Origin: Ramlibacter alkalitolerans
GTDB lineage: Bacteria; Pseudomonadota; Gammaproteobacteria; Burkholderiales; Burkholderiaceae_C
Length of the DNA: 64,000 nt
NCBI RefSeq assembly: GCF_016722765.1
Contig: NZ_JAEQND010000012.1
Coordinates: forward strand, 1-64,000
Reading direction: 5' to 3'
The notes below the pieces were generated by a model that worked only from the letters and a program-made list of their open reading frames with translations, ran no database searches and had not been told where the DNA came from. This document shows positions 40,269-52,344 of the stretch, in pieces (positions within the stretch are counted from its first letter, which is position 1; the number at the start of each line of letters is the position of its first letter). Made by a program: the position numbers and the translations under genes.

Positions 40269-40423
40269 CTTGTGCCTGGACCGGGCACGTGAGCAGGCGC
40301 GGCGCCTGATGCAGCGGCGCCGCGGCGATCTTCCGGCGCACTACCTGCACGGCCTGCCGATCGCGAAGCGCGTAGCAGGGCCGCAGTTCCGGCCGGCCGC
40401 GGGCCCGCGCGGAATGAACGTGG

Positions 40424-40479
40424 TGCATTCGGATGCTGCAAAACCGCCAGTTCCATTCACCGCACCCGCCAACCATGAT
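40424..40479 (+). promoter_or_regulatory. Composite promoter-like element, copy 1
   Basis: TGCA at 40424, TGCA at 40437, CAGTTCC at 40448-40454 and CATGAT at 40474-40479. All spacings (9, 7 and 19 bases) equal those of four other copies in the window. It ends 39 bases before the ATG of the 77-residue gene. Confidence 0.65.
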
Positions 40480-40518
40480 GGCTCCCGTGGACCCGTTCTT
40501 CACCTCAAGGAGCCCGTC

Positions 40519-40752
40519 ATGAACCGCACCATCGCCGCAGGCGCCGAAGCGCCGTTCGTCCTCCACTTCCGGTCCCTTTTCCACAGCGGCCGCGGATTCG
40601 AGTTCCCCTGCGATGCCGGGGGGCAGGTGGACCTCGACGCGATGAGCGAGCGGATCCGCAACAACTACCTCTACGCCCGCGCCATGATCGGCCGCGAAGT
40701 CGCCTGGCCGAGCGTGCGCAGGATCTCCGAAGCCTCCCTGCAGGGCGCCTGA
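40519..40752 (+). CDS. Small protein, 77 residues, unknown
   Basis: ATG 40519 follows AAGGAGC. The acidic-basic mixed soluble protein has no signal peptide; a central block reads PCDAGGQVDLDAMSERIRNN and the end is Trp-Pro-Ser rich. Family not recognised. It is directly controlled by composite element copy 1 and followed 13 bases later by the DedA-like gene, so the two may be co-transcribed. Confidence 0.6.
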   Translation: MNRTIAAGAEAPFVLHFRSLFHSGRGFEFPCDAGGQVDLDAMSERIRNNYLYARAMIGREVAWPSVRRISEASLQGA

Positions 40753-40765
40753 AGCGCGGCCCATC

Positions 40766-41434
40766 ATGCACGCGCTCACCGCCCTCTTCGAAGAGCATGG
40801 CCATCTCGCCGTGTTCCTCGGTGTGCTGTTCGAGCAGATGGGCGCACCCGTGCCGGCGCTGCCCTTCCTGCTGCTGGCCGGCGCGCGCAGTACCGGCGAT
40901 GTGGGCATCACCTTGCAGTTCCTGCTGCTGGCCTCGAGCGCGTCGGTGGTGGCCGACCTTGCCTGGTTCGCGGTCGGCCGCCGCCATGCCGAAACGGTGC
41001 TGGGGCGGCTCTGCCGGGGCAGCACCGCGCCGCATCGCTGCCGCGCCTGCGGGCAGACACGGTTCGCGCGCTGGGGCTCGGCCGCGGTGTTGCTGGCGAA
41101 GTTCGTTCCGGGGCTCACCACCGTCGCCCGTCCGCTGGCGGGGGCACTGGGCATGCCGGCGCGCACCTTCCTGGCGCTGGACCTGGTCGGCACCCTTGTC
41201 TGGGCGACGGGTGGCATCGGCAGCGGCATCCTGTTCGACCAGGAGATCGCGCAGGTGCTGCTGGGACTGGAGCGCGCGGAGGAGATGATCGTCCGCTGCA
41301 GCCTGCTGGCCGTCGCGCTGTACGGTGCCGGGCGGGCAGGGCGGGCGCTGCTGCGGCGCGCCCGCGTCGGCGCAGCAGAGCCGGGGCCGGGCCGGCATGC
41401 CGGCCCGCGTGCCCGGCGCCATCACTCGGCGTAG
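40766..41434 (+). CDS. DedA/VTT family membrane protein
   Basis: The 222-residue protein has the SNARE-associated (VTT) domain: FEQMGAPVPALPFLLLAGA near the N-terminus, the GRRHAETVLGRLC helix and KFVPGLTTVARPLAGALGM. DedA-family proteins move phospholipids or undecaprenyl phosphate across the inner membrane. An unusual Cys-rich loop (CRGSTAPHRCRACGQ) lies where other members have a short polar loop. It overlaps the convergent peptidase gene by 13 bases. Confidence 0.85.
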   Translation: MHALTALFEEHGHLAVFLGVLFEQMGAPVPALPFLLLAGARSTGDVGITLQFLLLASSASVVADLAWFAVGRRHAETVLGRLCRGSTAPHRCRACGQTRFARWGSAAVLLAKFVPGLTTVARPLAGALGMPARTFLALDLVGTLVWATGGIGSGILFDQEIAQVLLGLERAEEMIVRCSLLAVALYGAGRAGRALLRRARVGAAEPGPGRHAGPRARRHHSA

Positions 41435-42117
41435 TGGCGCTCCTCCAGCAGCATGTCCTCGAAGAAGGCGCCGAACCTGCCTTGCGGATCGCGCAGGTGG
41501 ATCTCCAGGATCCAGCGCATCGCCGACGGCCTGAAGTCGGCCGAAGCCAGCGAGCCCGTGTGGAGCGCCGCATGCGGGAAATCGGCCACGCGGTGGCCCG
41601 GCAGGTCGAGGTTCAGCTCCCAACCCATTTCCCGGGCTCGCTGCTGCGCGTATGCGTAGAGGCGCACGCCCGACCATCCGAACGCCGTCCACTGCCGCCG
41701 CACGTCGTGGAACAGTTCCTGGGCGTCGCGCGCGCACCTGGCCTGCAGCGGGTCGCTGCCGAACGTGAAGGTGGCGCCGCCGTCGCCTTCCCAGGCGGCA
41801 TGCCGCGGCGCGATGTCGATGAAGAAGATGTCCTCCTCCTGCAGCACCACGCCGGGTACGGAGGCCTGCCGCATCGCCTTGGTCGTGTTGCGGCCGAAGC
41901 GCACCCGCACCGGATGCCAGGTCGGCTGCAGGTCCATCCTGCGCAGCACTTCGCGCGCGCGTTCGACGGCGTCTTCTTCGACCATGCCGGGCTGGATGGC
42001 GCGGGCAATCTCGCGGATGGCGAGCCGGGTGAGATGGCGGGCGGCAAGCATGCCGTCGTCGGAAAAGGCGGGGCCGACCCGCTCTGCCTGCTGTCTGTCG
42101 CTGTGGAGAGTCGTCAT
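41422..42117 (-). CDS. M24 family metallopeptidase (creatinase/aminopeptidase fold)
   Basis: The 231-residue protein from ATG 42117 has the pita-bread metal set: Asp in FFIDIAPRH, Asp in EGDGGATF, His in PGHRVADFP, Glu in WILEIHLRD and Glu in FFEDMLLEE. It is shorter than methionine aminopeptidase, with a compact N-terminal region. It may process peptides or act as a C-N hydrolase; the substrate is unknown. Confidence 0.82.
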   Translation of the reverse strand: MTTLHSDRQQAERVGPAFSDDGMLAARHLTRLAIREIARAIQPGMVEEDAVERAREVLRRMDLQPTWHPVRVRFGRNTTKAMRQASVPGVVLQEEDIFFIDIAPRHAAWEGDGGATFTFGSDPLQARCARDAQELFHDVRRQWTAFGWSGVRLYAYAQQRAREMGWELNLDLPGHRVADFPHAALHTGSLASADFRPSAMRWILEIHLRDPQGRFGAFFEDMLLEERHYAE

Positions 42118-42285
42118 TGCGTTTGCTGGGGCTGGTGGATGTGCGCCGCCAGTGTGGGCCACGAGCTCCTTGGCGGTGGCAGCCGCACACGACCTTTCCT
42201 GCCAATCGCGCCGCAGCTGCCGCCATTCACGCCGGCAGGGCCTGGTGGCGACTACAGTTCCGGACCTCACAGAAGGAGAAAGCCT

Positions 42286-43026
42286 TTGTCGAAACAGGAC
42301 AGGAAGGTCGCGCTGGTCACGGGCTCGTCGCGCGGCATCGGTGCCGCCATCGTCACGCGGCTGGCCTCGGATGGCTTCACCGTGGTCGTGAATTACGCCG
42401 GCCGCGCGGCGGACGCCGAGGCACTGGCGGCGCGCCTCGCGCAGGCCGGCGCAAGCACGCTGGCGCTGCAGGCCGATGTCAGCGATCCGCGGGCCGTGAC
42501 GGCGATGTTCGATCGCGCGGAGGCGGCTTTCGGTGGCGTCGACGTGCTGGTGAACAACGCCGGCATCATGCGCCTGGCGACGATGGCCGCGTCGGACGAC
42601 ACGCTGATCGAGCGGCAGCTCGCGGTCAACCTCAAGGGCAGCATCCACACGATGCGGGAAGCGGCACGCCGGCTGCGCTCCGGCGGCCGCATCGTCAACC
42701 TGTCGTCGAGCGTCGTCGGCCTCTACCAGCCGACCTACGGGGTGTACGCGGCGACCAAGGCCGGCGTCGAAGCCATGACGCGGGTGCTGGCGAAGGAACT
42801 GCGCGGGCGCAACATCACGGTCAATGCAGTGGCGCCGGGGCCGACCGCCACCGAGCTGCTCCTGGACGGCAAACCGGAGGCCGTGGTGCAGCAACTCGCC
42901 ATGCTGGCGCCACTGGAGCGCCTGGGCCAGCCGCAAGACATCGCCAACGTGGTCGCCTTCCTCGCCGGGCCGGACGGCGCCTGGATCAACGGGCAGGTCC
43001 TGCGCGCCAACGGCGGGATCGTCTGA
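42286..43026 (+). CDS. SDR family oxidoreductase (FabG-like)
   Basis: TTG 42286 is chosen because AAGGAG lies eight bases upstream and the family start (KVALVTGSSRGIGAA) follows at once; no ATG fits. The 246-residue protein has NNAGIM, the Ser of NLSSSVVG and YAATK (Tyr-x3-Lys), a full catalytic set, and ends INGQVLRANGGIV. It reduces a carbonyl or oxidises an alcohol with NAD(P)H. Divergent from the peptidase gene. Confidence 0.9.
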   Translation: MSKQDRKVALVTGSSRGIGAAIVTRLASDGFTVVVNYAGRAADAEALAARLAQAGASTLALQADVSDPRAVTAMFDRAEAAFGGVDVLVNNAGIMRLATMAASDDTLIERQLAVNLKGSIHTMREAARRLRSGGRIVNLSSSVVGLYQPTYGVYAATKAGVEAMTRVLAKELRGRNITVNAVAPGPTATELLLDGKPEAVVQQLAMLAPLERLGQPQDIANVVAFLAGPDGAWINGQVLRANGGIV

Positions 43027-43032
43027 CCCGCG

Positions 43033-44007
43033 TCACTCCGCTTCCTCCGAGTTCCCGGCGGCGTTGCGCGCCGCCGCCGCGACCATGTCGCGCAGCCAGG
43101 CATGGGCCTCGTCGTGCTCGTTGCGCTGGTGCCAGACGGCTCGGGTGGTGGACGTTCCGGCGCGATAGGGCGGCTGGCGGATCAGCAGCTCGCTGCCGCG
43201 CGTGAGCGCCTTGGCCAGCGAGGCCGGCACGATCGACAGCATGTTGGAATCCAGCAGCATTGCCGGAATCGCCAGCGAGTGCGGCACGGTCACGCGCATC
43301 CGCGGCACCTGACCGGCCTCCGCCAGCGCCTCTTCGAGCGCGTGGCGCGCGAACATCTCCGACTGGCGCGCCAGCCCGCGCTCGAGGATGAAGCCGTCGA
43401 CGGCACCTTCCTCCTGGCCGCCGACCGAGATGGTGACGAGGGGGTACTTCGCCAGGTCCGCCAGCGTCAGCTTGCGGCGCGACGCGGGGTGGCCCTTGCG
43501 CATCAGGATCACCTCGCGCTGCGACATCAGGGTGCGGGCGCTCAGGCGCGGCGGTACCTGCGAGAAGATGCCGATCGCCAGGTCGATGCGGCCGATGTCG
43601 ATCTGCTCGGCGAGGTCCAGCCGGGTGGAAGGCCGGATCACCAGGTCCACGCCGGGCGCGGTGTCCTGCAGCTTGCGCGACAGCGGCGCCAGGATCACCA
43701 CCGTGATGTGGTCGTTGGCCGCGATCACGAAGCGCCGGTTCGACTTCTCCGGCGAGAAGCGCTCCACGCCCAGCGTCGCCTCGATGCGGCGCAGCGAGTC
43801 GCGCAGGCTCGGCGCCATGGCCGCCGCGCGGCCGGTGGGCACCATGCCCTTGCCCGTGCGCATGAACAGTTCGTCGCCGACCAGCTCGCGCAGGCGCGTC
43901 AGCGCGTGGCTCACGGCGGACTGCGTGAGGTTCAGGCGCCGCCCCGCGAGCACGAGGTTGCGGTCCTCGTACACGGCGTCGAACACCTTCAGCAGGTTCA
44001 GGTCCAT
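43033..44007 (-). CDS. LysR family regulator, PnbR/NahR-like
   Basis: ATG 44007 begins the typical MDLNLLKVFDAVY start; a TTG at 44022 is possible. The 324-residue protein has a LysR helix-turn-helix (LNLTQSAVSHALTRLRE) and the NahR/NodD-type effector domain. It is divergent from the hydroxylaminobenzoate lyase and nitroreductase genes, the arrangement of pnbR in nitrobenzoate degraders. Its operator would lie in the gap that also holds composite element copy 2. Confidence 0.85.
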   Translation of the reverse strand: MDLNLLKVFDAVYEDRNLVLAGRRLNLTQSAVSHALTRLRELVGDELFMRTGKGMVPTGRAAAMAPSLRDSLRRIEATLGVERFSPEKSNRRFVIAANDHITVVILAPLSRKLQDTAPGVDLVIRPSTRLDLAEQIDIGRIDLAIGIFSQVPPRLSARTLMSQREVILMRKGHPASRRKLTLADLAKYPLVTISVGGQEEGAVDGFILERGLARQSEMFARHALEEALAEAGQVPRMRVTVPHSLAIPAMLLDSNMLSIVPASLAKALTRGSELLIRQPPYRAGTSTTRAVWHQRNEHDEAHAWLRDMVAAAARNAAGNSEEAE

Positions 44008-44051
44008 CCGACCGATGCTCAAGACGGGCCTCCTTTCCGGGATGAATGACC

Positions 44052-44107
44052 TGCATTTTGCTCTTGCAATTACATCAGTTCCATTCAATTCACCCTTCGC
44101 CCATCAT
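44052..44107 (+). promoter_or_regulatory. Composite promoter-like element, copy 2
   Basis: TGCA at 44052, TGCA at 44065, CAGTTCC at 44076-44082 and CATCAT at 44102-44107, with the same internal spacing as the other copies. It lies in the LysR/pnbB gap, 38 bases before the pnbB ATG. Confidence 0.7.
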
Positions 44108-44145
44108 CGCTTCCAGCCGATCGGCCACCGAAGGACACCAGAACC

Positions 44146-44694
44146 ATGACCACCGCCACCGCGAACCAGGACCTCGAAGCCCTCATCGACCACTGTGTTC
44201 CCTTCCTCGAGGAAGTGAAGGACATGACGACCAGCACGGAAGTCGAACGCTGGCTCAACCGCAAGTACGGCCCCGGCAGCGAGCTGTACCAGACGCTCGC
44301 CCGCCTGGTGAAGAAGGGCGTGCAGGACGGCTGGGCCGCGAATGTGGAGATCGACGGCCCGGTGTACCGCCGCAGCCGCCTGGCAGAACCCTCGCAGCGC
44401 ACGCGCTTCTTCAGCATCACGGCGGTGTACATGGACAGCACCGGCAACCGGCTGGGCCTGCCCGACGACCGCTACCGCGGCCAGTATCACGGCCATCCCT
44501 ACGGCGAATTCAACATGGTCGTCCCGGTCACGCCGGGCGCCGCGCTGAACGGCCCCAACGGCTGGTGCGAAGGCGGCTGGACGGCGCCGGCGCCGGGCAG
44601 CCAGCACTATCCCGAGGCCAAGGGCGGCGCCGTGATCGCGCTGTTCTTCCTGCCGTCGGGGCGCATCTCGTACAACGCCGCGCCGCAGGAGTGA
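44146..44694 (+). CDS. pnbB: 4-hydroxylaminobenzoate lyase (DUF4863)
   Basis: The 182-residue protein belongs to the DUF4863 family: N-terminal helical part (LEALIDHCVPFLEEVKDM) and a cupin-like C-terminal part with GQYHGHPYGEFNMVVPV and GWCEGGWTAPAPGSQHYPE. PnbB turns 4-hydroxylaminobenzoate into protocatechuate and ammonia in the pnb pathway. The next gene, four bases on, is a nitroreductase, which matches pnbBA order. Substrate identity is inferred from this pairing. Confidence 0.85.
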   Translation: MTTATANQDLEALIDHCVPFLEEVKDMTTSTEVERWLNRKYGPGSELYQTLARLVKKGVQDGWAANVEIDGPVYRRSRLAEPSQRTRFFSITAVYMDSTGNRLGLPDDRYRGQYHGHPYGEFNMVVPVTPGAALNGPNGWCEGGWTAPAPGSQHYPEAKGGAVIALFFLPSGRISYNAAPQE

Positions 44695-44697
44695 AGC

Positions 44698-45444
44698 ATG
44701 GGAACGAGAGCGCTCGACTGGCCGCAGGCCGACATCGCCCGCTGCGTGGGCAACGTGCTGCGCGCCCGCAAGGCGGTGCGCGCGTTCCGACCCGACCCGC
44801 TGGGCAGGGAGCTGGTGCACGACATCCTCGCGGAGGCCTCCACGGCGCCGAGCGGCGCCAACATCCAGCCCTGGCGCGTGTACGTGCTGGCCGGTGCGCC
44901 GCTGAAGGAACTGGGCGACGCGCTGCTGGCCAGCGCGCGTTCCGGCAGTGCGCCACCTCCGGCGCACTTCCCGGACCCCTTGCCCGACGTGTTCCGCACC
45001 CGCCTGCAGGATTTCGGGGGCCGACTCTACGGATCGCTGGGCATCGAACGGCACGACGCGCCGGCGCGCGCGCGCCAGGCCGAGCGCAACCTGTTCTTCT
45101 TCGGCGCACCGGTCGGCCTGATCTTCAGCATCGACCGGCGGCTGAAGCCCCACAGCTGGATCGACCTCGGGCTGTTCGCGCAGAACCTGATGATCGCCGC
45201 GAAGTCGCGCGGCGTGGACACCTGCCCGCAGGTGTCCTTCGCTCCCTTCCACGACACCATCGCCGCGCAACTGCAGATGCCGCCGGAGGAGGTCACGGCC
45301 TTCGGCATGTCGATGGGCTATGGCGACCCCGCGGCGGCGGTGAACCAGGTGCGCATGCCGCGCGAGCGCGTCGAGGACTTCGCCCGGATGCTCGGGTTCC
45401 AGGGCCGCGCCGTCTCCAGCCAGGCATTGACGACGGCAGCATGA
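44698..45444 (+). CDS. pnbA: Nitroreductase, probable 4-nitrobenzoate reductase
   Basis: The 248-residue protein has the nitroreductase FMN pattern: RKAVRAFRPDPL, APSGANIQPWRVYVL, and the C-terminal MSMGYGDPAAAVNQVRMPRE. With NAD(P)H it would reduce an aromatic nitro group to hydroxylamine, the substrate of the preceding lyase. It is clearly paralogous to the gene at 48857. Confidence 0.85.
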   Translation: MGTRALDWPQADIARCVGNVLRARKAVRAFRPDPLGRELVHDILAEASTAPSGANIQPWRVYVLAGAPLKELGDALLASARSGSAPPPAHFPDPLPDVFRTRLQDFGGRLYGSLGIERHDAPARARQAERNLFFFGAPVGLIFSIDRRLKPHSWIDLGLFAQNLMIAAKSRGVDTCPQVSFAPFHDTIAAQLQMPPEEVTAFGMSMGYGDPAAAVNQVRMPRERVEDFARMLGFQGRAVSSQALTTAA

Positions 45445-45516
45445 ACGTGAACGTCCTCGCGAATGGCGGCAGCCTGCGCGAGCGCAGCGCATAGCGGCGT
45501 GCGCGGCGGGCTTGCG

Positions 45517-47742
45517 ATGGCAGCGACGGTCGAACCCATGCGCGAGGCGGGCCGGCGCGCCGGGGAGTTCCTGCGCGCCGCCCTGCGCACGGCCCTCAGT
45601 GCGCACGTCACCAATGGCCTGGTCGCGGCAGCCGCGCTGCTGCTCATTTCCTCGCTGGTGCACCTGCTGGCCGGCGGCGAGGCCGCTGCCGTCGCCATGG
45701 CCGGAGTGATCGTCGTGACGGCGCCGGACCATCCGGCGCCCCGTCGCGGCAAGTTCACGCACTTCCTGCCGGCCGTGCTGCTGGGCACGCCACTGTTCTT
45801 CGCGGTGGCGTCCCTGCGCGACACGGTGGCGGTGCTCGTCCCGCTGCTGATGGCCGCGACATTCCTTGCCTTCCTGTGCGCCGCCTGGGGCAAGCGGGGC
45901 CTGCCCATCGCCGCCTCGCTGGTCTTCGCCGCCCTGTTCGCGCTGGCTTCGCAGCCAGCCGCCGGGCCGGCCGCCGCGATGCGTCAAACGCTGGCATTCA
46001 GTGTCGGCGCGTGGCTGTACATCTTCTGGGCCACGGCAGCCAATGCGCTCCTGAACCACCGCTATCGCGTGCTGACGCTGGCCGACGCGCTGGCGGGGGT
46101 GGCTGCGCTGATGCGGGCGCAGGCCCTGCAGTTCACTGCGACGCCCCAGGTGCATCGGGCGACCGCGCTGGCGGACCGGCTGATCGGGCTGCAGGCGCGC
46201 CTGGCCGACGAACTGCAGGGGGCGCGCAACCTCCTGCTCGAGGATCCGACCGCGCCGCGGCGGCTGCAGCTCGCGGGCATGCTGCTGCACGCCATCGAAC
46301 TGCGCGATCACCTGGTCACCTCCGCACTGGATCTGGACGCGCTGTGTGACGCGCCCGGGCAGGACGAGCTGCTGCAGGTGCTCGGTCAGGAAATCCAGGC
46401 GCTCGCCGGCGACGTGGAGCAACTCGCGGACGCCTTGCGCCTCGGGCGCGTCCCGGCGCGCATCGGCCGCCGGCGGCCGCCGCTTGCCGCTGCGGCTGCC
46501 GCGGCGCCGGACCCTCGCGACGCCGACCTGCACGCGCCATCGCCCGGCCTGCTGGCACGCGCGCTGGCGCGCCGGGTTGGCCATGTGCACGACGAGGTGC
46601 TGCGGCTACTGGAGCTGGCCGCCCGGGGCGAGCGCGCGCCCGACGCGCGGGTGGTACGCACGGCGTGGCAGCTGTTCGTCAGTCCGACCGGCTGGTGCTG
46701 GGGCCCGTTGCCGGGCCTGTGGCGCCGGGATGCGCCGCCGCTGCGCCATGGCGTGCGGGCCGCGCTCGCCATCGGCACCGGCTATGTCGTGGGTGCCGCC
46801 ATCCCCTGGGGGTCGCACGCGACCTGGATCCTGATGACGATCGCGTTCGTGCTGCGCGCAACGCTGTCGCAGACCCTGGAACGTCGCGACAGCCGCGTGG
46901 CCGGCACGCTCCTGGGCTGCGTGGTGGCGGGCACGTTGCTCTATGCGCACGTGCCGCCCCCCGTGCTGCTGCTGGCCGTCGCGCTGGCCCATGGGATCGC
47001 CCATGCCTTCGTCCTGCGCCGCTACCTGGTGACGGCGGTGGCCGCCACGGTGCTGGCCCTGCTGCAGTCCCACCTCCTGAACGGCGCCAGCGCGCCGGTC
47101 TTCGACGTCGCCGAACGCCTGCTGGACACGCTGCTGGGCGTCGCCATCGCCTGGATCTTCAGCTACGTGCTGCCTTCGTGGGAGCGCGCCCAGGTCGCGG
47201 CGCTGCTCGCTCGCGCGCTGGCCGCACAGGCGCGCCACGCGCAGCTGGCGCTGCGGCTCGGCCAGCTGCAGGGCGTCAGCACCGCATCGGAACTGGCCTG
47301 GCGGCTGGCGCGCCGGGAGGCCTTCGACAGCCTGTCCGCCCTGGCGCAGGCCGTCCAGCGTTCGCTGGCCGAACCGCGCTCCGTGCGGCCGCCGGTGGCG
47401 GAACTCCAGCGCGTGCTCGCGCGCAGCTACCAGCTGCTGGCGCAGCTCACCGCCACCAAGACCATGCTGCTGCGCCGGCGCCACCTGGTGGACCTGGCGC
47501 CGCTGCAGGCGCCGCTCGCGCAGGCGGCGCGCACCATCGCGGCCGCGCTCGCGCCGGCAGCCGGCCAGCCGGCGCCGCCCGCCTTCCCTTCGCCGCAGCT
47601 GCACGCGGGGCTGGCCCCGTGGGTGCTGCGCCGCCTGCGCCTGGCGGTGGAGATCGCCGACGACCTGCGTGCCGATGCAGCCCGCCTCCCGCTGCCGCGC
47701 GCAGCCGTCGCGGCTGGCGCGGAAGACGGCGCCACGCACTGA
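45517..47742 (+). CDS. FUSC family membrane protein, probable aromatic acid exporter
   Basis: The 741-residue protein has two blocks of transmembrane helices (about residues 30-180 and 410-560) each followed by a soluble helical domain, the YccS/AaeB-like (FUSC) layout. The second block begins LRHGVRAALAIGTGYVVGAA. Such proteins extrude aromatic acids. Position between two nitroreductase genes suggests relief from toxic nitro- or hydroxylamino-benzoates. ATG 45517 is assumed; the ribosome-binding site is weak. Confidence 0.82.
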   Translation: MAATVEPMREAGRRAGEFLRAALRTALSAHVTNGLVAAAALLLISSLVHLLAGGEAAAVAMAGVIVVTAPDHPAPRRGKFTHFLPAVLLGTPLFFAVASLRDTVAVLVPLLMAATFLAFLCAAWGKRGLPIAASLVFAALFALASQPAAGPAAAMRQTLAFSVGAWLYIFWATAANALLNHRYRVLTLADALAGVAALMRAQALQFTATPQVHRATALADRLIGLQARLADELQGARNLLLEDPTAPRRLQLAGMLLHAIELRDHLVTSALDLDALCDAPGQDELLQVLGQEIQALAGDVEQLADALRLGRVPARIGRRRPPLAAAAAAAPDPRDADLHAPSPGLLARALARRVGHVHDEVLRLLELAARGERAPDARVVRTAWQLFVSPTGWCWGPLPGLWRRDAPPLRHGVRAALAIGTGYVVGAAIPWGSHATWILMTIAFVLRATLSQTLERRDSRVAGTLLGCVVAGTLLYAHVPPPVLLLAVALAHGIAHAFVLRRYLVTAVAATVLALLQSHLLNGASAPVFDVAERLLDTLLGVAIAWIFSYVLPSWERAQVAALLARALAAQARHAQLALRLGQLQGVSTASELAWRLARREAFDSLSALAQAVQRSLAEPRSVRPPVAELQRVLARSYQLLAQLTATKTMLLRRRHLVDLAPLQAPLAQAARTIAAALAPAAGQPAPPAFPSPQLHAGLAPWVLRRLRLAVEIADDLRADAARLPLPRAAVAAGAEDGATH

Positions 47743-47748
47743 ACGGCG

Positions 47749-47804
47749 TGCAACTCGCTCTTGCAAAGACATCAGTTCCGTTCAACACCGGCCGCGACCA
47801 TCAT
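47749..47804 (+). promoter_or_regulatory. Composite promoter-like element, copy 3
   Basis: TGCA at 47749, TGCA at 47762, CAGTTCC at 47773-47779 and CATCAT at 47799-47804. Spacing is identical to the other copies. It ends 38 bases before the Bug receptor ATG, the same distance as copy 2 to pnbB. Confidence 0.7.
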
Positions 47805-47842
47805 CACGCGCATCCCGAGCCATCGACCGAAACGAGGACCCC

Positions 47843-48820
47843 ATGCAGACACTTTCACGCCGCCGCTTCGCCCGCCTGGCCATCGCCGCCCCGGCCGCCG
47901 CCTGGCTGCTGCCCGCGCTGGCGCAGACCGGAAAATTGCTGGTCGGCTATCCGGCCGGGGGCACGCTGGACACCACCGCGCGCCAGCTCGCCGAGGCCTG
48001 GCGCAAGCAGGGGCGCCTGTACATCGTCGACAACCGGGCCGGCGCCGCCGGACGCATCGCCAACAGCCAGCTCAAGCGCGAACGCGCGGACGGCAACACG
48101 CTGCTGTGCACGCACACCTCGGCACTCACCATCTACCCGCACGTCTACAGCCGGCTGATGTACGACGCCGCCGCCGACTTCCTGCCGGTGTCGCCGCTGG
48201 TTTCCGCGACCTGTGCCTTCGCCGTCAGCAGCGCGGTGCCGGCCGACCGCGTGAAGACGCTGGACGACTACGTGCGCTGGCTGCGCGCGAATCCCGGCGC
48301 GGGGATCTATGCATCGCCGGCCGCCGGCTCGATGGCGCACTTCCTCGGCTACCAGTTCTCCGAAGCGCGCAAGCTGAAGCTGCAGCACGTCGGCTACCGC
48401 GGCTCCGCGCCGGCCATGCAGGACCTCCTGGGCGGCCAGATCCCGGCCTACTTCGGCTTCGTGGCCGACTTCCTGCCCTACCTGCAGCAGGGCAAGGCCA
48501 GGATCCTCGGCGTGACCGGCGACAAGCGTTCGCGCTTCCTGCCCGGCGTGCCCACCTTCGCGGAGCAGGGGCTTGCGGCCATCCGCGGCGTCGAGACGTA
48601 CGGTGTCTTCGCGCCGCCCGGAACGCCGCCGGCCACCGTCGCGGCCCTGCACGAGGCGCTGGTCGCCGCGAGCAAGGATGGCTCCCTGGTGGCGGCCTTC
48701 GAGCAGGTGGGGCTGGACACCTTCACGCTGGCTCCGCAGGATTACGCTGCGCTGGTGCGGCGGGAGCGCGAGGCCTGGGGCCCGGTGGTGCGCGCTTCCG
48801 GTTTCCGCTCCGAAGAGTGA
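47843..48820 (+). CDS. Bug/TctC-type receptor with a Tat-like signal
   Basis: The 325-residue Bug protein starts with SRRRFARLA followed by a hydrophobic stretch and AQTG, a twin-arginine (Tat) type signal rather than the Sec type of the other two Bug genes here. The mature part is family-typical (LVGYPAGGTLDTTARQLAE and GYRGSAPAMQDLLGG). It probably binds an aromatic or nitroaromatic carboxylate in view of its neighbours, which is inference. No TctAB permease nearby. Confidence 0.88.
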   Translation: MQTLSRRRFARLAIAAPAAAWLLPALAQTGKLLVGYPAGGTLDTTARQLAEAWRKQGRLYIVDNRAGAAGRIANSQLKRERADGNTLLCTHTSALTIYPHVYSRLMYDAAADFLPVSPLVSATCAFAVSSAVPADRVKTLDDYVRWLRANPGAGIYASPAAGSMAHFLGYQFSEARKLKLQHVGYRGSAPAMQDLLGGQIPAYFGFVADFLPYLQQGKARILGVTGDKRSRFLPGVPTFAEQGLAAIRGVETYGVFAPPGTPPATVAALHEALVAASKDGSLVAAFEQVGLDTFTLAPQDYAALVRREREAWGPVVRASGFRSEE

Positions 48821-48856
48821 TTCCTTCTTTGCCGAGATGCTGGACAAGGAGTGGAC

Positions 48857-49585
48857 ATGACTTCCCTGACGTGGTCCCAGGCCGACATCGGCCAATGCGT
48901 CGACCAGGTGCTGCGCTCGCGCAGGTCCGTGCGTGCCTACAAGCCGGAGCCGCTCGCGCGCGAACAGGTGCTGGAGATCCTGCAGGCGGCCGCCTCGGCG
49001 CCCAGCAACTCGAACACGCAGCCGTGGCGCGTCTACGTGGTGACGGGTGCGCCCATGCGACGCCTGGGCGACGCGCTCGTCACGGCCTTCCAGGACGGCA
49101 GCTTCCCGCCGCCGACGCACTTTCCCGACCCGCTGCCCGCCGTGTTCTGCGACCGCCAGGCCGACTTCGCCGCGCGCTACTACGGCACGCTGGGCATCGA
49201 CCGCAAGGACGCCGAGGCCCGGGCGCGGCAGAGCCTGCGCAACTTCACTTTCTTCGGCGCCCCGGTGGGGCTCATCTTCAGCATCGACGCCCGCCTGGGC
49301 CGCCATAGCTGGCTCGACCTCGGCCTGTACGTGCAGAACGTGATGATCGCGGCGCGCTCGCGCGGCATCGACACGTGCCCCCAGGTCTCGTTCGCGCGCT
49401 TCCACTCGCTGATCGCCGCCCACCTCGGGATGCCCGACGAGGAGGTGACGGCCTGCGGCATGTCGATGGGGTTCGGCGACACCAGCGCGGGCGTCAACCA
49501 GATGAACCTGCCGCGCCAGCACGTGAGCGAATTCGTGCGGCTCGCCGGCTTCGAAGCGCCGGCGGAATGGATCGGCCGGGGCTGA
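48857..49585 (+). CDS. Nitroreductase, second copy
   Basis: ATG 48857 lies six bases after AAGGAG. The 242-residue protein aligns with the gene at 44698 along its length (RRSVRAYKPEPL, APSNSNTQPWRVYVV, MSMGFGDTSAGVNQMNLPRQ). It most likely reduces a related nitroaromatic acid, or is a backup copy. It shares the transcription unit of the Tat-Bug gene under element copy 3. Confidence 0.87.
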   Translation: MTSLTWSQADIGQCVDQVLRSRRSVRAYKPEPLAREQVLEILQAAASAPSNSNTQPWRVYVVTGAPMRRLGDALVTAFQDGSFPPPTHFPDPLPAVFCDRQADFAARYYGTLGIDRKDAEARARQSLRNFTFFGAPVGLIFSIDARLGRHSWLDLGLYVQNVMIAARSRGIDTCPQVSFARFHSLIAAHLGMPDEEVTACGMSMGFGDTSAGVNQMNLPRQHVSEFVRLAGFEAPAEWIGRG

Positions 49586-50262
49586 AGCCGGTGAAGGACG
49601 AGACGGTCCGGGTTGCGCCTCGGGCCGCTCGCCTGCCATCGGCGGCGCCGCTGCTGGTCGGGGCCGTGCTGGCCGCGATCGCGGGCTGGGTCGACACGCT
49701 CGGCTTCCTCGGCCTGCAGGGGGTGTTCACGGCCCACGTGACCGGCAACTTCGTGCTCCTGGGCACTGGCCTGGCCGGCGATGCCGGCGCCGTGGCGGTC
49801 AAGCTGCTGGTGCTGCCCGCCTTCGTCGCGGGTGTTGCCTGTGCGGCCGGCACCCATGCGATCCGGCGCGGGACCGCGTCCCTCCTGCTGCTGTTCGAAG
49901 TGGCGGCGCTGGTGGGCTTCCTGCTGGCCGGCGTGCGCGCGTCCCCCTGGCTGGCCGCCTGCGCCGGCGCGTTCGCCATGGGCGTGCAGAACGCGCAGTC
50001 GCGCCTGTCCCTCAGCTCCGCGGGGGCGACGACGGCGATGACCGGCAACGTCACGCAGCTGGTGCTGGAGGGCATGGGGGCGGCAGGCCTGCTCGCCGCC
50101 GACCGCCGGCAGGCCCGCCAGCGCATGGCGAGCACCCTGGCGCCCGTGGCCGGCTTCGCAATGGGCTGCGCCGGCGGCGGGCTCGCCTGGCTCGCCTGCT
50201 CGTTCTGGGCGCTGCTCGTGCCGATCGCCGTGCTGTGCGCGCTGGCCTGCTGCGCGGACTGA
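49567..50262 (+). CDS. DUF1275 (YoaK-like) membrane protein
   Basis: The 231-residue protein has six hydrophobic helices and the DUF1275 motif GFLGLQGVFTAHVTGNFV and MGVQNAQSRLSL, with AMTGNVTQL. ATG 49567 overlaps the nitroreductase end by 19 bases; GTG 49591 is the alternative. The family is thought to include small-molecule transporters but no substrate is known. Confidence 0.82.
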   Translation: MDRPGLKPVKDETVRVAPRAARLPSAAPLLVGAVLAAIAGWVDTLGFLGLQGVFTAHVTGNFVLLGTGLAGDAGAVAVKLLVLPAFVAGVACAAGTHAIRRGTASLLLLFEVAALVGFLLAGVRASPWLAACAGAFAMGVQNAQSRLSLSSAGATTAMTGNVTQLVLEGMGAAGLLAADRRQARQRMASTLAPVAGFAMGCAGGGLAWLACSFWALLVPIAVLCALACCAD

Positions 50263-50334
50263 CTGCCGGCGGATTCCCTTCGTTCAGTCGCGCAGGCCGA
50301 TCGCCTAGCGTAGCGCTTCGGGGCTTGAAGCGCG

Positions 50335-50390
50335 TTCATGGCGGCCTTGCAGAACGATCAGTTCCACGCAAGGCCGTGCTGGACCATCAT
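50335..50390 (+). promoter_or_regulatory. Composite promoter-like element, copy 4
   Basis: TTCA at 50335 (one mismatch to TGCA), TGCA at 50348, CAGTTCC at 50359-50365 and CATCAT at 50385-50390; all spacings match the other copies. It sits in front of the SRPBCC-like gene. Confidence 0.6.
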
Positions 50391-50396
50391 CGCCGG

Positions 50397-50756
50397 GTGA
50401 TCGAACCCGGCCTCATCGCGTTGACGCGCCTGCTTTTGTTCACCCTCGACATGTACAGCCCCTGGGGCATGCAGGAGCTCCAGGTCCTGGCGGTAGAGCC
50501 TGGCCGGCTGCTTTCCTGTGCGTTCGCCCGCGGCACTCTCGATACGACGCTCACCTGGCGCATCCAGCCCGCGGGATCGGGCGCCCGGCTCGTGATGGAG
50601 CACACGGGCCTCGATCTCGCATCTGCCACCGGCCGCGCCGCCTTCGACGGCATGCGCAGCTATTGGCCCGAGGCCCTGGCGCGGATGCGCGCGGTGCTCG
50701 AGGCCGACCCGCCCGTCCGCTCGCGCAACGCGCGGCAGGCCGTCCTCGCGCGGTAG
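50397..50756 (+). CDS. SRPBCC/AHSA1-like protein, apparently N-terminally truncated
   Basis: From GTG 50397 the reading frame gives 119 residues; TTG 50421 and ATG 50451 are alternatives. The strands LQVLAVEPGRLLSCAF, TTLTWRIQPAGSGARLVMEHTGL and the final helix AFDGMRSYWPEALARM match the C-terminal two thirds of activator-of-Hsp90-like SRPBCC proteins. The N-terminal helix and first strands are missing, and composite element copy 4 lies where they should be. A remnant or a shortened protein is possible. Confidence 0.5.
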   Translation: MIEPGLIALTRLLLFTLDMYSPWGMQELQVLAVEPGRLLSCAFARGTLDTTLTWRIQPAGSGARLVMEHTGLDLASATGRAAFDGMRSYWPEALARMRAVLEADPPVRSRNARQAVLAR

Positions 50757-50776
50757 GGGGGCGGCGGGTCTCGCCC

Positions 50777-51766
50777 ATGCGCATCGGGATCCTCGCCTTC
50801 GAGCGCGTCCAGCTGCTCGACGTGGCCGGCCCGGCGGATGTCTTCGCCGAGGCGGCGCGGCAGCTTGCCGATCCGCAGGCCTACAGCGTGGAGGTGATCG
50901 GCACGCAAGCGGGCGTCCTGCGCAGCAGCTGCGGGCTGGGGCTCGCCGTCGATGCGACTTTCTCCACCCATCCCGGCGGCCTCGACACGCTGCTGGTGGC
51001 CGGCAGCCCGCGGATCGAGGCGGTCGAAGCGGACGCGCAACTGCACGACTGGTTGCGCGCGCAGGCCGGTTCCGTGCGCCGCATCGGCTCGGTGTGCAAC
51101 GGCGCGTTCGTGCTCGCCGGTGCCGGCTTGCTGGACGGCCGCCGCGCCGCCACGCACTGGAACGCCGTGGCGCGGCTCGCCGCCAGGCACCCGCGGGCCA
51201 ATGTCGAACCCGATGCGATCTACGTCAAGGACGGCAACCTCTACACGTCCGCAGGGGTCAGCGCCGGCATGGACCTCGCGCTCGCCATGGTGGAAGAGGA
51301 CCACGGGCGCGAGCTGGCGCTCGGGGTGGCGCGCGAGCTGGTGATGTTCCTCAAGCGCCCCGGCGGCCAGAGCCAGTTCAGCGCGTATCTCGCTGCCCAG
51401 ACCGCCGCCAGGTCGAACATCCGCCAGGTGCAGGACCATGTGCTCGCGCACCTGGATGCCGATCTGTCGGTTCCCAGGCTGGCCGCCCACGCAGGAATGA
51501 GCGAGCGCAACTTCGCCCGCGTGTTCCGTGCCGAAACCGGCATGACGCCGGCGGAGTTCGTGGAGCAGGCGCGCATCGACGAGGCCCGCCGGCTCATGCA
51601 AGGCAGTGCGCTGCCGCTGAAGCGCCTGGCGGCCAACATCGGCTACGCCAACACCGATGCATTTCGCCGCGCCTTCCTGCGTCGCCTCGGCGTCGGCCCG
51701 AGCGAGTACCGCACGCAGTGGGGCGAGGCCGCACGGCGGCCTCCTGCCGCCTCCTCGCCGGCGTAG
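50777..51766 (+). CDS. GlxA-type AraC family regulator
   Basis: The 329-residue protein combines a DJ-1/PfpI (class I amidotransferase-like) domain with the Cys-containing nucleophile elbow GSVCNGAFVLAGAG (about residues 110-123) and a C-terminal AraC double helix-turn-helix (VPRLAAHAGMSERNFARVFR, then LAANIGYANTDAFRRAF). GlxA-like regulators sense small metabolites. It starts 20 bases after the SRPBCC-like stop, so it may be expressed from element copy 4. Confidence 0.9.
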   Translation: MRIGILAFERVQLLDVAGPADVFAEAARQLADPQAYSVEVIGTQAGVLRSSCGLGLAVDATFSTHPGGLDTLLVAGSPRIEAVEADAQLHDWLRAQAGSVRRIGSVCNGAFVLAGAGLLDGRRAATHWNAVARLAARHPRANVEPDAIYVKDGNLYTSAGVSAGMDLALAMVEEDHGRELALGVARELVMFLKRPGGQSQFSAYLAAQTAARSNIRQVQDHVLAHLDADLSVPRLAAHAGMSERNFARVFRAETGMTPAEFVEQARIDEARRLMQGSALPLKRLAANIGYANTDAFRRAFLRRLGVGPSEYRTQWGEAARRPPAASSPA

Positions 51767-51879
51767 CGGCGCGGCGCGTCGGCGTGCGCGTGGCGATCGG
51801 CCGCGCGAGGCGCATGGGATGCGCTCAGTTGGGGAGAAGCCGGCGTCACTCTGGAGCAGCCGGCGTGAATTGAATGCAC

Positions 51880-51935
51880 TGCATGACTCCGGTGCAAAAC
51901 CGTCAGTTCCATTCAAGACGCACGTGACCCATGAT
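51880..51935 (+). promoter_or_regulatory. Composite promoter-like element, copy 5
   Basis: TGCA at 51880, TGCA at 51893, CAGTTCC at 51904-51910 and CATGAT at 51930-51935, spaced exactly as in the other copies. It ends 46 bases before the ATG of the DUF4148-like gene. Confidence 0.7.
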
Positions 51936-51981: not shown

Positions 51982-52344
51982 ATGCATCGCACCATCGCCG
52001 CCGCCGTCATCGCCCTCGTCGCCGCCTCGTCCGCTTCCTCCGTCCTGGCCGACGACATCACCGTCGAAACGACGCCCTTCGTCTCCACCTCGAGCCGCGC
52101 GCAGGTGAACGCGCAACTGCAGCAATTCCGGCAGGCCGGCGTGGATCCGTGGGCGCAGCACTACGACCAGCTCGCCGCCTTGCGCAGCAGCCGCACGCGC
52201 GCCCAGGTGCGCGCCGACTATCTGCAGTCGCGGCAGGAGACCGCCGCCCTGACCGCCGAAGACAGCGGCTCCGCCTGGCTGGCCGCCCGCGCGCATGGCG
52301 TCGCCGCTTCGCTGCTCGCCGGCACGCCGGCCAGCGGCCAGTAA
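51982..52344 (+). CDS. DUF4148-like secreted protein 1
   Basis: The 120-residue protein has a Sec signal peptide (cleavage near VLADD, residue 24) and a repeat-poor mature part with SRAQVNAQLQQFRQAGVDPWA and RTRAQVRADYLQSRQE, close to DUF4148 proteins of Burkholderiales. Function of the family is unknown; location is the periplasm or outside. First of three tandem genes behind element copy 5. Confidence 0.78.
   Translation: MHRTIAAAVIALVAASSASSVLADDITVETTPFVSTSSRAQVNAQLQQFRQAGVDPWAQHYDQLAALRSSRTRAQVRADYLQSRQETAALTAEDSGSAWLAARAHGVAASLLAGTPASGQ

Follow-up and report, generated by a model that had tools for sequence, protein, structure and literature searches.

The window, a 64,000-nucleotide stretch of the Ramlibacter alkalitolerans genome (contig NZ_JAEQND010000012.1, positions 1 to 64,000), carries a cluster of genes that includes a PnbB-family lyase, two nitroreductases, a TctC/Bug solute receptor and a divergent LysR-type regulator, and within this cluster one 66-bp DNA element occurs five times (Table 1). 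The original prediction, made from the letters of the window, had described the element as four boxes of invariant spacing, TGCA-N9-TGCA-N7-CAGTTCC-N19-CAT(C/G)AT, and had proposed a dimer-pair site next to a non-housekeeping promoter. Here we examine the anatomy of this element, its distribution among relatives, and the regulator that is likely to read it.

Table 1. Genes of the cluster and copies of the 66-bp element in the window (IR1 and IR2, inverted repeats 1 and 2; E, expectation value in the 46-site profile search or in Pfam)
Feature	Position	Strand	Details
77-amino-acid protein	40519..40752	+	no Pfam match
LysR-type regulator, 324 amino acids	43033..44007	-	Pfam HTH_1 and LysR_substrate; proposed activator
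PnbB, 4-hydroxylaminobenzoate lyase family	44146..44694	+	Pfam PF16155, E 7.9e-62
Nitroreductase NTR1	44698..45444	+	Pfam PF00881
FUSC-type membrane protein	45463..47742	+	Pfam PF13515, PF12805; start codon tentative
TctC/Bug solute receptor	47843..48820	+	Pfam PF03401; script-chosen start
Nitroreductase NTR2	48851..49585	+	Pfam PF00881; 64% identity to NTR1 over 231 residues
DUF1275 protein	49591..50262	+	Pfam PF06912
AraC family regulator with DJ-1/PfpI domain	50777..51766	+	Pfam
DUF4148 protein	51982..52344	+	Pfam PF13663
Copy 1	40415..40479	+	IR1 40415-40427, IR2 40437-40449, -35 40451-40456, -10 40474-40479; E 3.9e-10; upstream of the 77-amino-acid open reading frame
Copy 2	44043..44107	+	IR1 44043-44055, IR2 44065-44077, -35 44079-44084, -10 44102-44107; E 1.7e-14; between the divergent LysR gene and pnbB
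Copy 3	47740..47804	+	IR1 47740-47752, IR2 47762-47774, -35 47776-47781, -10 47799-47804; E 2.4e-14; upstream of the TctC/Bug gene
Copy 4 (weakest)	50326..50390	+	IR1 50326-50338 (TGAA-N5-TTCA), IR2 50348-50360, -35 50362-50367, -10 50385-50390; E 3.5e-7; upstream of a partial AHSA1-like open reading frame, then the AraC/DJ-1 regulator gene
Copy 5	51870..51935	+	IR1 51871-51883, IR2 51893-51905, -35 51907-51912, -10 51930-51935; E 3.1e-9; upstream of the DUF4148 gene

Allowing up to three mismatches, the spaced pattern matches the window at exactly the five places first noted, all on the plus strand (40424, 44052, 47749, 50335 and 51880); the match at 50335 carries one mismatch, its first box reading TTCA. 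The pattern is absent from 100 dinucleotide shuffles of the window, and a reversed control pattern has no match in the whole 5.71-Mb genome, where the pattern itself matches six times; the set is thus larger than had been noted, the sixth site lying at C1:612536 on the minus strand, upstream of an HD-domain gene. A search profile built from 46 distinct sites of loci L040-L072, with the window's genome excluded and the L052 site at 2111 aligned with a gap, returns exactly six sites from this genome at E ≤ 1 (E 1.7e-14 to 3.5e-7; 150 of 1527 first-look candidates scored). The distances to the next ATG chosen by script are 39, 38, 38, 60 and 46 bases for copies 1-5, reproducing the earlier values for copies 1, 2, 3 and 5; the script-chosen starts look wrong in some loci (L045, L047 at 3406, L049 and its copy L084, L060 at 9903, L072 at 1905, and L010). 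The HD gene of the sixth site is followed by a truncated nitroreductase (L005 453-857, contig C1), which lacks its first part and has 78% identity to NTR1 over residues 157-234.

A rigid block is evident from the profile of 60 sites, which were drawn from 65 sites of the window's genome and its relatives by dropping 5 duplicates; all had been chosen at no more than four mismatches to the original pattern, and two G001 sites (L007, L024) stand outside the profile. With the start of box 1 as offset 0, information is high over the 66 bp from offset -10 to 55, except at 36-49, and is mostly near background beyond these limits, where single positions (-52, -12, 63) reach 0.6-0.7 bits. Among the five window copies the mean pairwise identity is 0.67 at offsets -10 to 36, 0.42 at 37-49 and 0.90 in the last box, falling to 0.29 in both the upstream and the downstream flank. 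The description of the sequence between the boxes as mostly unrelated proved wrong: the profile shows conservation over much of offsets 12-36, and an additional arm, TGAA, stands 5 bases upstream of box 1 in all five copies. This arm, at offset -9, is independent of site selection.

The block resolves into inverted repeats followed by promoter-like hexamers. Repeat 1 is a T-N11-A inverted repeat, TGMA-N5-TKCA, and repeat 2, TG-N9-CA, lies 22 bp downstream; among 130 tested centres, TG-N9-CA is by far the most frequent at -3 (59 of 60 sites) and at 19 (53 of 60), and no other centre exceeds 5 of 60. At centre -3 the T-N11-A form is found in 59/60 sites and the fuller TGMA-N5-TKCA in 51/60, while a third repeat is weak (T-N11-A in 32/60). 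Downstream come a weak -35 hexamer, TTCCAT, at offsets 27-32 and a -10 hexamer, CATSAT, at 50-55, separated by a 17-bp spacer. The -35 hexamer agrees with TTGACA at only 2 of 6 positions; it opens with TT in all 60 profiled sites, these letters belonging to the selecting pattern. When loci are instead anchored on the upstream boxes alone, 31 of 32 have xAxxxT (A2 and T6) at the position of the -10, the exception being Rhizobium L068. The two hexamers at this spacing lend no support to the non-housekeeping promoter first proposed.

Parsed in this way, the four boxes of the original pattern divide between the two putative repeats and the promoter: box 1 closes repeat 1, box 2 opens repeat 2, box 3 joins the end of repeat 2 to the -35, and box 4 is the -10. 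The proposals of protein and polymerase contacts and of a dimer-pair site beside a promoter are supported by this anatomy. The TGCA-N9-TGCA pair itself, however, appears to be split between two successive LysR-type inverted repeats, its first TGCA ending one and its second TGCA beginning the other. Symmetry would also allow TGCA-N9-TGCA to be the main dyad (T-N15-A), but that reading gives no T-N11-A, which the centres -3 and 19 do; the covariation test favours neither of the two dyad readings.

The predicted arrangement resembles what is described for LysR-type proteins, which usually cover 50-60 bp; they recognise a T-N11-A site near -65, and their activation site is at the -35 (PMC8407307). 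If transcription starts about 8 bases after the -10, the three repeats here would lie at approximately -66, -44 and -34. C62 and A63 are common in the loci anchored on the upstream boxes (25/32 and 24/32, respectively); they would put the start at 63 and, counted from there, the first two repeats at -66 and -44. The E. coli IlvY-ilvC operator offers a close parallel in the part of the literature available to us, with three TTGCA-N5-TGCAA repeats centred at -65, -43 and -34 (PMC5002191); the likeness extends to a regulator divergent from its target, our own positions being predicted from a guessed start. Unlike IlvY-ilvC as that text presents it, the element here is repeated before several operons, its third repeat is weak, and the regulator, genes and inducer are others.

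Nearly every site stands ahead of a target gene. At 59 of the 60 sites one of the listed target proteins has its N-terminal part encoded on the same strand within 500 nt, and of 600 positions picked at random from these loci 75 do so; copies lying mostly within genes, or in random orientation, are not what the scan of this genome and its relatives with the spaced pattern reveals, but enrichment upstream of target genes. The target proteins were partly picked from these same sites, and PnbB, TctC and NTR1 alone account for 45/60. By site the targets are TctC (22), PnbB (20), two related HD proteins (9), nitroreductase (3) and others (5). Of the 33 LysR loci (L073, at 26% identity, is left out of every count on this set), 30 have a PnbB gene, 28 a nitroreductase, 4 an AraC gene and 23 a TctC-like gene, which in four of them is a weak match (28-30% identity). 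Conservation of the block itself extends over several genera, among them Variovorax, Cupriavidus, Hydrogenophaga and Ramlibacter. These findings support the earlier suggestion of one putative regulon with pnbB, the gene for the Bug receptor and that for the DUF4148 protein among its members, and the family names of the targets point to a role in the uptake and reduction of a nitroaromatic acid.

Relatives of the 77-amino-acid protein, at 62 and 66% identity, are encoded in Variovorax L052 (2334-2618) and L053 (6014-6298), where an element with 4 mismatches likewise precedes the gene; the family comprises small proteins of 77-90 amino acids, and both Variovorax loci have M24 peptidase and AraC genes as neighbours. 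The first ~20 bases of the genes after copies 1 and 5 are similar (40519-40545 and 51982-52008), which suggests a partial duplication, with the rest of gene 1 probably changed later. The open reading frame after copy 4 (50451-50756) matches the AHSA1 profile at positions 51-125 only, as if its first part were lost, and copy 4 may instead serve the AraC/DJ-1 gene that starts at 50777.

The likely regulator of the element is the LysR-type protein encoded at 43033-44007. Its gene is divergent from copy 2, whose repeat 1 sits 36-48 bp upstream of the LysR start codon, and in 32 of 33 loci the LysR gene is preceded by the upstream boxes with no more than three mismatches, a level that none of 6600 shuffles reached (4 mismatches at best). 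Within the genus, at an ortholog cut-off of E ≤ 1e-90, 7 of 60 genomes have the LysR gene and exactly those 7 have strong sites; in a family sample the gene occurs in 9 of 399 genomes, 6 of which have strong sites. For the 453 distinct genomes of genus and family together, strong sites are present in 12 of the 15 with LysR and in 0 of the 438 without it (Fisher p 3e-21, kinship uncorrected). Since most sites adjoin the LysR gene and travel with it, sites on other contigs weigh more: five sites lie off the LysR contig, and the genomes that contain them (G000 with one, G016 and G272 with two each) all carry LysR, which makes 3 of 15 genomes with LysR as against 0 of 438 without (p 3e-5).

Some more distant homologs of this LysR protein retain parts of the element. 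Those at 60-62% identity (L079, L080, L081) match model positions 1-51, 1-42 and 1-41 of 66 and have no -10, suggesting that operator and promoter are separable parts; one at 66% (L078) gives a weak match over positions 1-64, and TGCA-N5-TGCA arms are found in all four. G272, the genome of L080, has two complete elements on other contigs. On the conjugative IncP plasmid pBHB of Comamonas sp. 7D-2 (L098), a LysR relative (73%, residues 74-309 matched) adjoins a gene annotated MnbA, with ligA, Bug-type receptor and reductive dehalogenase genes nearby; this MnbA has no similarity to the 17 query proteins at E 1e-3, and our literature search returned nothing on plasmid pBHB or on DUF4863.

Several observations weigh against assigning the element to this regulator and to an ordinary promoter. 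Conservation of the boxes at offsets 0, 13, 24 and 50 is partly a product of selection, because those boxes picked the sites. A scan for consensus sigma-70 promoters finds no plus-strand promoter at these boxes, its one match being on the minus strand (51958-51931), where it overlaps the end of copy 5; a terminator scan gives one match versus 3.4 expected. The start-like CA at 62-63 is present in only 32/60 sites, and in 2/6 in this genome, so the transcription start is a guess. Covariation between the dyad arms is not significant, which leaves the symmetry resting on conservation; covariation is not a required feature of the LysR family. When the dyad pairs of repeat 1 are compared with shuffles only -8/2 stands out (p 0.015, with 60 pairs tested), and the commonest pair at -7/1 is the non-complementary A/G (44/60).

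The co-occurrence has its own weaknesses. Much of it is not independent, because a site beside the LysR gene is passed on along with that gene, and the off-contig sites come from draft assemblies, in which contig separation gives no true distance. The genus and family site searches used stricter filters, by which weak matches were lost. A single weak partial match (E 9.2e-5, G008:C2:115137-115197, L112) occurs in G008, which lacks the LysR ortholog; an open reading frame near it looks by eye like a flavodoxin or a quinone oxidoreductase. Conversely, LysR homologs at 61-66% identity in G303, G310 and G370 are accompanied by weak matches only (E 1e-5 to 2e-4 within their loci). In Rhizobium L068 the upstream boxes are present with 3 mismatches but the -10 is missing from its place, and Pseudolabrys L070 fails the pattern with 6 mismatches. 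The profile search of L068, L070, Comamonas L098 and Caballeronia L099 gave nothing at E ≤ 1.

Three other explanations were weighed. The fixed spacing to a -10-like box, and the lack of a plus-strand sigma-70 consensus match at the sites, could be accounted for if the copies were promoters read by an alternative sigma factor, with the boxes mainly polymerase contacts; one might add the reverse-strand word GGAACTG, which we take to resemble the -35 of extracytoplasmic function (ECF) sigma factors. That word, however, is on the strand opposite the target genes, only 6 copies were found in the genome and 5 of them in one cluster, the element's presence follows one LysR gene, and the distant homologs L079-L081 keep the upstream part without the -10, all of which makes this explanation highly unlikely. 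Judged by box spacing, consensus sequence and the gene content of the LysR loci, we consider it just as improbable that the element is the operator of another regulator with TGCA boxes. BoxR/BzdR bind TGCA repeats, and their clusters can hold a pfam16155 (PnbB-like) gene, but in the accessible text the reported spacings are 1, 6 or 15 nt as opposed to the 5, 9 and 18 found here (PMC6449761). BenR, of the AraC/XylS type, is described in the same text as binding TGCA-N6-GGNTA (PMC6449761), whereas the consensus of the 60-site profile has no GGNTA six bases after any TGCA arm. The AraC protein of 50777-51766 is a candidate in that its gene follows copy 4, but relatives of it occur in 4 of 33 LysR loci while 32 of 33 carry the upstream boxes. 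That the copies are recently duplicated mobile or repeat DNA with no regulatory role has the least chance of all: five do fall within 12 kb, and copies 1 and 5 are alike also at the following start codon, but flank identity between copies is 0.29, the block is kept across genera, and all but one of the 60 sites face a target gene.

We therefore regard it as very probable that each copy is a LysR-type operator set at a fixed distance from a weak sigma-70-type promoter and read by the LysR protein of 43033-44007; judged by sequence, this would be one LysR regulon with a probably ordinary sigma-70-type promoter and not a new promoter class. LysR binding, activation, the class of inducer and the transcription start are what we infer in the following model. 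A LysR tetramer would anchor at repeat 1 (TGMA-N5-TKCA, T-N11-A, near -66) and would also hold repeat 2 (near -44) and the sequence over the -35 (near -34), and the fixed spacing of the boxes would be imposed by such a regulator. On binding of an aromatic, probably nitroaromatic, effector the second LysR dimer would shift; LysR-type proteins may move between two activation sites upon effector binding (PMC11739112). The shift would let polymerase use the poor -35 (TTCCAT) and -10 (CATSAT), and the pnbB-nitroreductase, Bug-nitroreductase and satellite operons would be switched on together. The LysR protein probably also represses itself, since repeat 1 of copy 2 sits just ahead of its start codon.

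The proposed inducer class may be set beside known systems. By sequence, the nearest solved structures to the LysR protein are LysR-type regulators, including a PCP-degradation activator, the top relatives presumably being DntR; the DntR/NagR/NtdR group is the closest, yet distant, its best stretch covering residues 1-214 of 324. These are LysR regulators for salicylate and nitroaromatics, 4-nitrobenzoate included, and in the accessible text DntR- and NtdR-type proteins regulate dioxygenase genes (PMC3180648). Six nod boxes are reported on S. meliloti pSymA in the available portion of another source (PMC5793154). The arrangement here resembles the nod boxes and NodD of rhizobia, as far as those are covered there, in having one LysR-type regulator and one conserved box before several operons, and differs from them in inducer and genes. 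In gene content the window is like the pnbA-pnbB-pnbR genes of Ralstonia pickettii YH105 and Paraburkholderia terrae KU-15, where pnbA encodes a nitroreductase and pnbR a regulator: it too combines a PnbB-family gene with genes for nitroreductases and a regulator. On the P. terrae KU-15 chromosome pnbA, pnbB and pnbR are near each other, according to the accessible text (PMC9302171). The literature searched, as far as its text was available, holds no operator description for the pnbA-pnbB-pnbR genes.

A broader proposal can be offered tentatively, as possible but on balance doubtful: that this is an undescribed Burkholderiales LysR regulon for nitroaromatic or hydroxylaminoarene compounds, in which a portable, nod-box-like unit of operator, -35 and -10, maintained as a single rigid 66-bp block, is recruited by new genes, and in which the strictly kept inter-repeat stretch ACATCAGTTCC would mark an activation geometry with contacts shared by regulator and sigma factor over the -35. 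No description of the element or regulon was found in the literature searched, from which most subscription papers were missing.

The analysis shows no new principle of transcription; the control would be of an ordinary kind. What it provides is a sequence-defined operator for an uncharacterised LysR regulator, together with a list of targets kept across several genera, and a 46-site profile that singles out the regulon from a genome with few other matches. The inducer, the PnbB-family lyases, the paired nitroreductases, the Bug receptors and the HD-domain protein can now be tested as one system.

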